Both the position numbers and the translations under genes were made by a program. From Patescibacteria group bacterium (lineage in GTDB: Bacteria; Patescibacteriota; Patescibacteriia; CAIXNZ01), in NCBI GenBank assembly GCA_028714455.1, contig JAQTMG010000009.1, positions 1 through 34,308 on the forward strand: DNA of 34,308 nucleotides, read 5' to 3'. How positions within the stretch are numbered: position 1 is the first letter of the stretch; each line of letters starts with the position of its first letter. The notes under the pieces were generated by a model that worked only from the letters and a program-made list of their open reading frames with translations, searched no databases and was not told the origin of the DNA. Positions 13,084 to 15,535 of this stretch are shown in pieces.

Positions 13084-13413
13084 TTAACGGTTGTCGCCGT
13101 TGCCGTGAAGCATACCTCGTTCTTTTCTGGAAAATAATTTTTCAATATTTTTTTGCGCCACTTCATCCAGTGATAAACCAAGCTCGGTGGCGATTTGCGA
13201 AGTGTACCACAAAACATCGCCAAGTTCTTTTTGGATTTCTAATTTTGTGGCCTCATCAATAATGCCGTTTTTGTCGCGTAAAACTTTTTTAATCTTTTCC
13301 GCCACTTCGCCCGCTTCGCCGCTTAAACCCAGGGTTGGATAAATAAAATTTTTATCCCTATTAGGATAAAGCGCTGTTTCTCTTGATTTTTTTTGATATT
13401 CTTGGAAATCCAT
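13084..13413 (-). CDS. MazG-like nucleotide pyrophosphohydrolase
   Basis: 109 residues, one MazG-like all-alpha domain. The metal-binding pattern is visible: GLSGEAGEVAEKIKK with Glu33 and Glu36, then KELGDVLWY with Glu63 and Asp66. Family members hydrolyse nucleoside triphosphates to monophosphates and pyrophosphate, clearing abnormal or excess nucleotides. The single-domain length fits the short MazG-like group rather than the two-domain MazG. It lies downstream of the trmB-like gene with a 39-base gap, so the two may be cotranscribed. Substrate cannot be read from the sequence. Confidence 0.87.
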   Translation of the reverse strand: MDFQEYQKKSRETALYPNRDKNFIYPTLGLSGEAGEVAEKIKKVLRDKNGIIDEATKLEIQKELGDVLWYTSQIATELGLSLDEVAQKNIEKLFSRKERGMLHGNGDNR

Positions 13414-13452: not shown

Positions 13453-14247
13453 CTATTGAGGAATATTTAAAGGGGGAGCTTCCTGCTTATTTTCTGATTC
13501 AGATCCGATCCAGGCAAGTTCAAATATAGTTTTTTGGGTTCTGGCGATGGCCGAACTTTCAATTATTATGCTTAGCAGGTCCTTGTATGAGGCAATAAAT
13601 ACTTTATTGCCATAAATAATTATTTGGTTAAATAGGGGAAATTTTTCTTTACTAATCAGCCTGGTAATTCTTAATTCTTCTCCATCATTTTTTTGGAGCT
13701 CCATGGATTGGGAAGATAATTCAGCCAAACATCTTTGCTTGAGACCCTTTTTAACCCGTCTTACAATATACTCCTTGATATATTGTTCGAGATATTTTGT
13801 TGTTGATTCATAAGCCGAATAAACAAGCATATCTTCATTATATTTTGACTCAATAGATTCATCAAAAATAGCTTTTATACCATCGAGCCCTTCGTAAGTT
13901 CTAATTTTTGGCTTAATGCCCCTTATGTTATAGAAAGATAATAATTCTGGCATTAATTCCGAAAAAGCATCTTCTTCGTTTCTGATTTTTTCTTCTTGTT
14001 GCTTAAAATATGCAGTAATTTTTTTTGGGTTTTCGGCAAAATACTCGCGATGTGTCCCCTTTTGGCTAAAAGAAATAAAGCCTCTTTTAATAAGACTATC
14101 AAGGATGCTATAAGTGGTTGTCCTTTTTATTTGCGCCTTATCAGCGACTTCTTGAATATTGGCCGAACCAAGCTGAAGCAGGGTTAAATAGATTTTAACC
14201 TGATTTTTTTTGAGTCCCAAATTGAGTAGGCGAGTGTTTATATCCAT
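13453..14247 (-). CDS. TrmB-type transcriptional regulator
   Basis: 264 residues. Residues about 8-75 form a winged helix-turn-helix of the TrmB kind (LGLKKNQVKIYLTLLQLG, ADKAQIKRTTTYSILDSLIK, wing RGFISFSQKGTHREYFAENP). The next stretch (about 78-105) looks like a charged helical linker, and the C-terminal effector part (about 110-250) is like that of other bacterial TrmB-type proteins. TrmB proteins often sense sugars in archaea, but the bacterial ligand is unknown. The gene is divergent from a radical SAM enzyme. A 19-bp palindrome lies between its predicted transcription start and start codon, and a related site overlaps the enzyme's -35 box, suggesting autoregulation plus control of the enzyme. 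Confidence 0.87.
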   Translation of the reverse strand: MDINTRLLNLGLKKNQVKIYLTLLQLGSANIQEVADKAQIKRTTTYSILDSLIKRGFISFSQKGTHREYFAENPKKITAYFKQQEEKIRNEEDAFSELMPELLSFYNIRGIKPKIRTYEGLDGIKAIFDESIESKYNEDMLVYSAYESTTKYLEQYIKEYIVRRVKKGLKQRCLAELSSQSMELQKNDGEELRITRLISKEKFPLFNQIIIYGNKVFIASYKDLLSIIIESSAIARTQKTIFELAWIGSESENKQEAPPLNIPQ

Positions 14248-14252
14248 AAATT

Positions 14253-14271
14253 TGACGAATATATGTCGTCA
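14253..14271. promoter_or_regulatory. Candidate operator 1 (TrmB leader)
   Basis: TGACGA-N7-TCGTCA, perfect 6-bp arms with an AT-rich centre, placed between the predicted trmB transcription start (about 14276 on the minus strand) and the start codon. Confidence 0.6.
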
Positions 14272-14282
14272 TTCATATTTAA

Positions 14283-14311
14283 ATTATAGCAAATTACTCA
14301 ATAAAAGTCAA
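14283..14311 (-). promoter_or_regulatory. trmB-like gene promoter
   Basis: On the minus strand, TTGACT (14311-14306), a 17-bp spacer and TATAAT (14288-14283) with TGC before the -10. Confidence 0.75.
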
Positions 14312-14365
14312 ATCTTTTTGGCTATATATAGGAATTATCTGCTAAATATAAAAAACCCAAATTTA

Positions 14366-14384
14366 TGACGAAATATACTTGACA
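14366..14384. promoter_or_regulatory. Candidate operator 2 (radical SAM promoter)
   Basis: TGACGA-N7-TTGACA has the same left arm and spacing as operator 1, with 4 of 6 matches in the right arm. Its right arm is the -35 box itself, so binding would block RNA polymerase. Confidence 0.5.
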
Positions 14385-14407
14385 AGATTAGTAATTTATG
14401 CTATAAT
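14379..14407 (+). promoter_or_regulatory. Consensus promoter of the radical SAM gene
   Basis: TTGACA (14379-14384), a 17-bp spacer and TATAAT (14402-14407), also extended by TGC. This full consensus is unusual for an accessory gene and suggests high expression when not repressed. The leader is about 63 nt. Confidence 0.85.
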
Positions 14408-14476: not shown

Positions 14477-15535
14477 ATGAAAATGAGAATAAAATCTTCC
14501 CCCACAAAGCTTGAGATCGAGAACGCTCGGAACAATGGCCAACTTATGCTTCTGTGGCTAGAAATTTGGCCGAATTGCCATCTGAATTGCAGCTTTTGCT
14601 TCAATCATGGTGGCAGAGCTCCGCAGACCCCAGATTGGTTGACAGTCGATGATTATTATAAAATCATTGACGAGTTCATTGCTCTGGGCGGTAAGTATCT
14701 GGGAATCCCTGGATACGGAGAACCCTTTCATCCTCGCAATCTTAATCTTACGCTCAACATCTTGGAGCATGCCTTGCAAAAAGGTGTTAAGTCCTATGTA
14801 TTTACAACTGCCGATTTAATCAACGAAGACTTGGCACTGCAACTGAAGAAACTTGATGTGACACTGATGATCAAGTTCAACAGCTTTGATGAAGAAATTC
14901 AAGATGGATTGGTCGGCAGCAGGGGTTATACGGCCAGAAGGGCAAAAACCCTGGAACTTTTAATTAAACTTGGTTTTAACAAACCGGAGATTGACGAGGA
15001 GGGTGTTACCACGCGGTTGGCTTTCGTGACCTCAATTGTCCCTGAAAACGGCGAAGAGATTAAAAGAATCTGGGAATATTGTCATCAAAACAATATTTAC
15101 CCAGACATCGACACGATTTTGCCAAAGGGAAGAGGTCGCGATTACACTTGTTCAAGCGCTGAAAAAATCGAAGAGATATTTAAGGCGCTGACCGGACATG
15201 AAGTTAAGTCGCCAACCTACATTGATGGCCATTGCGATCGGACAATGTATGGCCTTTACATCAGCTACAAGGGAGAAATTTTTCCTTGCCTGGGATGTAA
15301 GGGTGAAAACGGTGATAAGGCTTGCATTGGTCACATCAAAAGCGGTCTTACACTTGCCTGGAACTGTACTCTTGAAAAAAAGATCAGGAGTCGCGATTAC
15401 TCCGGCAAATGCACAACCTGCGAGCATTACATTGATGGGAAATGCAACAGCTGCATTGGTCGCTGTTGCACGAAATGCACCGAAGATTGCATCGAGATGG
15501 ATGGATGTTCCTTTTATAAAAAGGCATCTATATAA
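14477..15535 (+). CDS. Radical SAM enzyme with cysteine-rich SPASM-like C-terminus
   Basis: 352 residues. The [4Fe-4S] SAM-binding motif is CHLNCSFC (Cys34, Cys38, Cys41), followed by GIPGYGEP, a variant of the glycine-rich SAM contact. The last 100 residues hold 14 cysteines, including FPCLGC, CTTC, CNSC, RCCTKC and DC..GC, which fits a SPASM/twitch domain with auxiliary iron-sulfur clusters. SPASM enzymes modify peptides or proteins or activate partner enzymes. No precursor peptide gene is seen next to it. AGGAGG lies 9 bases before the ATG, the promoter is full consensus, and a strong terminator follows, so it is a single-gene unit. It faces a TrmB-type regulator. The substrate is unknown. 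Confidence 0.88.
   Translation: MKMRIKSSPTKLEIENARNNGQLMLLWLEIWPNCHLNCSFCFNHGGRAPQTPDWLTVDDYYKIIDEFIALGGKYLGIPGYGEPFHPRNLNLTLNILEHALQKGVKSYVFTTADLINEDLALQLKKLDVTLMIKFNSFDEEIQDGLVGSRGYTARRAKTLELLIKLGFNKPEIDEEGVTTRLAFVTSIVPENGEEIKRIWEYCHQNNIYPDIDTILPKGRGRDYTCSSAEKIEEIFKALTGHEVKSPTYIDGHCDRTMYGLYISYKGEIFPCLGCKGENGDKACIGHIKSGLTLAWNCTLEKKIRSRDYSGKCTTCEHYIDGKCNSCIGRCCTKCTEDCIEMDGCSFYKKASI

Follow-up and report, generated by a model that had tools for sequence, protein, structure and literature searches.

A divergent gene pair in a patescibacterial genome raises the question of how a bacterial TrmB-type regulator and the radical SAM gene that it faces are controlled. The pair lies in a 34,308-nt stretch of DNA (hereafter the window, meaning the whole stretch analysed) from an 893-kb, 16-contig assembly. 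The original prediction held that the regulator represses itself and its neighbour through shared operator-like sites, and that a ligand releases both promoters. From comparisons at the sequence level, we consider it likely that the local TrmB-type protein binds operators at both promoters and represses its own gene and, less surely, the radical SAM gene. The features concerned are the following:

13084-13413, minus strand: MazG-type pyrophosphohydrolase gene, 39 bp downstream of the TrmB-type gene
13453-14247, minus strand: TrmB-type regulator, 264 aa, with a winged HTH, a coiled coil and a PLD-like C-terminal domain
14107-14109, minus strand: codon of Ser47, a residue that co-varies with the operator and corresponds to D51 of P. 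furiosus TrmB
14253-14271, no strand assigned: O1, TGACGAATATATGTCGTCA, palindromic operator-like TGACGA-N7-TCGTCA (6+6, perfect) in the TrmB 5' leader, from a pattern scan with no mismatches
14283-14311, minus strand: TrmB promoter TTGACT-N17-TATAAT (11/12) with TG before the -10, from a promoter scan
14366-14384, no strand assigned: O2, TGACGAAATATACTTGACA, half-palindromic TGACGA-N7-TTGACA, from direct reading and a pattern scan
14379-14407, plus strand: radical SAM promoter TTGACA-N17-TATAAT (12/12) with TG before the -10, from a promoter scan
14477-15535, plus strand: radical SAM/SPASM protein, 352 aa, with CX3CX2C at C34-C38-C41
15550-15573, plus strand: strong intrinsic terminator, immediately behind the radical SAM gene

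The local arrangement is as originally noted. O1 reads without mismatch between the predicted TrmB transcription start (around 14276) and the ATG at 14247. The second site is present and ends exactly on the TTGACA of the radical SAM promoter; it repeats the left arm and the N7 spacing of O1 without change, and its right arm, which matches TCGTCA at 4/6 bases, is itself the -35 hexamer (14379-14384). This places the centre of O2 at about -39 relative to the predicted radical SAM start. Both promoters are near consensus and carry a TG before the -10 box. The exact O1 palindrome occurs once in the 893-kb genome and in none of 60,000 shuffles of the window's intergenic region. The presence of two sites with at most two mismatches in 34 kb is mildly unusual (0.59 expected; reached in 12 of 100 shuffles). 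Because these in-window statistics are weak for O2, the comparison across genomes decides on it, and the candidacy of O2 rests on that comparison and on its position.

Two extensions of this arrangement were considered and rejected. A search for a wider regulon in the same genome returned one site with one mismatch and about 20 with two. Three of these sites were inspected and two fall within long open frames (the third, L004, not clearly so), and we therefore claim no wider regulon. A fixed helical phasing between O1 and O2 was also set aside: the distance from centre to centre is 113 bp in the window versus about 86 bp in most relatives.

The regulator carries the TrmB-type winged HTH (PF01978, 54.5 bits for a cut-off of 25.6) and scores far below the cut-offs of the NCBIfam TrmB, TrmBL1 and TrmBL2 equivalogs. 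Its predicted structure is confident (pLDDT 92). The closest full-length solved structure, by sequence and by fold, is TrmBL2 (Foldseek E-value of 7e-14 to 5bpd over the full length), and TM-scores of about 0.4 indicate that domain placement differs; weaker matches are to phospholipase-D-like folds, presumably via the C-terminal half. In P. furiosus TrmB, Y50 and D51 have been named as DNA-binding residues (PMC4158304). A profile alignment puts Y46 and S47 of the window protein, within its recognition helix IKRTTTYSILDSL (residues 40-52), at their places, with the tyrosine conserved and the aspartate replaced by serine. The part of the original prediction in which a ligand releases both promoters is unsupported: Pfam reported no match to the Regulator_TrmB sugar-binding domain (PF11495) at E <= 0.001, the nearest full-length structures are those of TrmBL2, and TrmBL2 stands in a review's listing with no effector-binding domain (PMC4158304). 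Any releasing signal, whatever its nature, would be conjectural.

The radical SAM protein has cysteines C34-C38-C41 that are invariant in seven sequences, a match to PF04055 (54.8 bits), and a SPASM domain that passes marginally (PF13186, 22.0 bits against a cut-off of 21.5). It falls far below every NCBIfam equivalog cut-off, those of the mycofactocin, PqqE, sactipeptide and other named radical SAM/SPASM maturases included (best score of 37.4 bits against a cut-off of 265). NCBIfam, the PDB sequence search and Foldseek returned generic SPASM relatives only, and the structural model is weak (pLDDT 68). In a general view of the neighbourhood, no RiPP precursor gene was noticed beside it. The gene appears to be monocistronic, with its terminator directly behind it. 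On the other side, mazG may be co-transcribed with the TrmB gene and would thus share its autoregulation. Genes for MazG and for a Ham1 nucleotide pyrophosphatase flank the pair in the window.

TrmB homologues are common in the relatives searched (at least one in 110 of 144), and G110, a relative of the same class with a 1.4-Mb genome, has 18 matches, several of them adjoining one another. The radical SAM protein is rare: besides its own genome it was found in one of 143 relatives, and the wider searches found it in four of 381 class genomes and three of 380 phylum genomes, its own included. All five full-length copies found in Patescibacteria (window, G140, G149, G596 and G545) face a TrmB gene; in G364, a contig end and a transposase-like frame cut into the copy. 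Searches at family and class level around the other four pairs added none, a scan of viral contigs gave one weak match, and a scan of genome contigs produced no new pair. The latter did find radical SAM homologues with no TrmB called alongside, in a Cloacimonetes bacterium and on a Kiruna metagenome contig. The Cloacimonetes protein (L041:3881-6730) has 949 aa, is 41% identical over the shared part, and is encoded directly behind ABC-transporter-like genes.

A tree built from the effector part alone unites the window TrmB with those of G149, G596 and G545 in one clade (support 99/99) and places that of G140 elsewhere; a different TrmB therefore took the same place in G140. We also observed that the TrmB of G596 (L039:2824-4008) runs into a NUDIX-like domain and is apparently a TrmB-NUDIX fusion. 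The radical SAM leaders of G596 and G545 (L039, L040) have two hairpins in common, CGATGA..TCATCG and then a GC hairpin (z-scores of -4.0 and -2.5), a structure that the window leader lacks.

Five radical SAM/SPASM-linked pairs were available for comparing the sites. The expectation that both sites would be conserved with the gene pair was borne out in part. The TrmB of G149 is 50% identical to that of the window, and its leader has, at the same position as O1, TATGACGA-N7-TCGTCATA, which keeps TGACGA-N7-TCGTCA exactly (one of 60,000 shuffles of its region). The two-site layout recurs as well. In G140, whose TrmB has Leu47, the leader contains TGTCATCAATTATGACA and a TGTCAT-N5-TTGACA ends on the target's -35, so that TGTCAT is found at both sites. 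The two His47 regulators have TGTGAA-N6-TTCACA (G545) or a one-base variant of it (G596) in their leaders; at O2, G596 matches in 5/6 bases, with a TGTGAT that lies six bases upstream of its -35. The conservation of O2 is where the expectation fell short: G149 is the closest pair, yet its O2 left arm reads TGACAC (4/6; shuffle P of 0.11), and G545 also reaches 4/6 (shuffle P of 0.15).

The relation between protein and site extends beyond these pairs. We compared a set of 108 nonredundant TrmB homologues, made up almost wholly of members of the class together with the two pairs from other classes. In TrmBs with Ser47, a TGACGA palindrome with a spacer of 7 or 8 closely follows the gene's own -10 box. 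When one mismatch was allowed and the distance to the start was limited to 60 nt, the motif TGACGA-N7/8-TCGTCA was found for 10 of the 12 Ser47 TrmBs versus 0 of the 96 others (Fisher P of 1.7e-12; the Fisher and shuffle values overstate independence, since the sequences are related). Exact copies of the palindrome also occur at two non-Ser47 TrmB genes, though over 150 nt upstream. The tighter form TGACGACN5ATTCGTCA had three perfect matches in 381 genomes, all at leaders of Ser47 TrmBs. When residue 47 changes (to His, Asn or Leu), O1 changes too, and a change of O2 is clear in two of the three cases. The His47 regulators of G596 and G545, with their TGTGAA-type O1, lie inside the radical SAM-linked clade, and in G349, whose Asn47 regulator is nested in the Ser clade of the effector-domain tree, O1 and O2 alike carry TAGACA. 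Such parallel change of the two sites is hard to explain otherwise than by one protein reading both.

A separate observation concerns TrmBs with the helix INRTTGYD, which often carry TTTGTG-N12-CACAAW-type palindromes overlapping their own -35, with TTGACA inside (leaders L006-L013, L019, L072 and L079-L081). This suggests a putative second class of operators.

The systematic comparison for O2 took the O1 half-site from each of 14 divergent TrmB intergenic regions and scored its matches in that same region 5-7 bp ahead of the -35 of the target (placed by promoter consensus scan, except by hand in G170). The matches sum to 75 bases across the 14 regions, compared with a mean of 39 and a maximum of 52 in 3000 shuffles, and nine regions have a perfect 6/6 half-site. 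The half-site fails in G110 with the -35 chosen by the scan and is weak (4/6) in G149 and G545. Among the genes divergent from Ser47 TrmBs are B12-binding radical SAM genes (G174, G041 and G057, in the last behind a tRNA-binding gene), methyltransferases (G027, G367, G170) and a NUDIX gene (G311); in G027 the methyltransferase is followed by a gene with a CX3CX2C motif and no Pfam match. As the targets vary, the radical SAM gene is not a fixed partner of these regulators. In regions of the non-SPASM Ser47 clade (L058-L064, upstream in G174, G110, G041, G311, G044, G170 and G367), an everted TCGTCA-N3/4-TGACGA lies just upstream of the divergent gene's -35, in addition to O1; the window differs in this respect.

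Because O1 is exact in G149, the layout recurs, and the sequence of the sites follows the recognition helix, the reading of O1 and O2 as cis-elements recognised by the adjacent TrmB is supported, binding itself being what we infer from these computed patterns. A TrmB dimer would read the TGACGA half-sites through the recognition helix of its winged HTH. Bound to O1, which closely follows the TrmB promoter, it would block its own transcription and possibly that of mazG behind. At O2 it would compete with RNA polymerase, the right arm of the site being the -35 hexamer, and a full-consensus promoter would be kept down. The original prediction, in which the regulator represses both itself and its neighbour, stands unequally for its two halves: autoregulation is well supported, and the effect on the radical SAM gene, which we infer with less certainty, is probably repression.

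The main competitor for O2, which we regard as unlikely, is that TrmB, while repressing itself at O1, acts from O2 as an activator of the radical SAM gene, in the way of archaeal TrmBL1 and Tgr with a motif upstream of the promoter elements. The centre of O2, at about -39, is close to class II activator sites, and some targets in relatives have weaker promoters, with 9-10 of 12 consensus bases. Sites of TrmBL1, Tgr and VNG1451C activate when upstream and repress when downstream (PMC4158304). Against this, the -35 hexamer is itself the right arm of O2, and the window promoter, at 12/12 with a TG before the -10, should need no activator; the target promoters of G149 and G174 also score 12/12. 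We favour repression at O2 because the radical SAM promoter is at full consensus.

Two further readings were weighed. That they are read by another regulator, or that they serve mainly TrmB autoregulation with the radical SAM gene hit via a chance overlap of O2 and the -35, seems to us quite improbable. The varied neighbours of Ser47 TrmBs (B12-binding radical SAM, methyltransferase, tRNA-binding, NUDIX) would fit it, as would a right arm that the -35 constrains anyway; the left arm of O2 has no core-promoter role, however, in two clades the operator changes with the TrmB helix, and O2 tracks the changes of O1 in G349 and G140. Much less credible still is the view that O1 acts in the TrmB leader only at the RNA level, as a hairpin or a weak terminator, and that O2 resembles it by chance. 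The terminator scan does mark a plus-strand stem of 6 bp at 14253-14271, but this stem has few pairs, an Rfam search gave no match, and the primary sequence TGACGA is kept, beyond pairing, in Ser47 TrmBs and is repeated at O2 in the opposite transcription unit.

TrmB-type regulators are widespread and multi-copy in this class of bacteria with tiny genomes, and the window offers a concrete, testable operator pair. The comparison suggests a specificity-setting residue and the gene of each regulator, a route to the functions of neighbours such as the rare radical SAM enzyme. We see roughly even chances that patescibacterial TrmBs follow a helix-to-operator code, in which each kind of residue 47 (Ser, His, Asn, Leu or Asp) has an operator of its own and every regulator acts through two sites, on its own gene and on the divergent neighbour, with O2 against the neighbour's -35. 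If so, it would become possible to predict from sequence what a large family of regulators controls in uncultured bacteria, and one line of TrmBs would be devoted to radical SAM enzymes.

Local regulators that control themselves and have operators on divergent promoters are already known, and in the archaeal TrmB family the position of the operator relative to the promoter sets the effect, with autoregulation for some members (PMC4158304). No description seems to exist of the operator, its association with Ser47, the link to radical SAM genes or a TrmBL2-like build in bacteria: a literature search, with most subscription journals outside its coverage, found nothing on TrmB in the candidate phyla radiation, Patescibacteria or Parcubacteria. 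The best fold matches of the radical SAM protein are SuiB (sactipeptide-type, 5wgg/5why) and anSMEcpe, which share the CX3CX2C core and a SPASM-like C-terminal part, at 15-19% identity and on a low-confidence model. The regulator resembles P. furiosus TrmB, TrmBL1 and T. kodakarensis Tgr in its PF01978 winged HTH, its recognition-helix tyrosine (Y50, here Y46) and its palindromic operators. It differs in having Ser in place of D51, in the absence of a reported PF11495 match, in a radical SAM target instead of sugar transport, and in its operator, TGACGA-N7-TCGTCA as opposed to TACT-N3-AGTA and TATCAC-N5-GTGATA. TrmBL2 of P. furiosus (PDB 5box, 5bpd, 5bqt; about 264 aa), the best match in full-length sequence and fold, is an abundant chromatin protein on coding and intergenic DNA (PMC4158304). 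A similar non-specific chromatin role is disfavoured here: TrmBL2 coats DNA widely, whereas the exact O1 palindrome has a single copy in the genome of the window.
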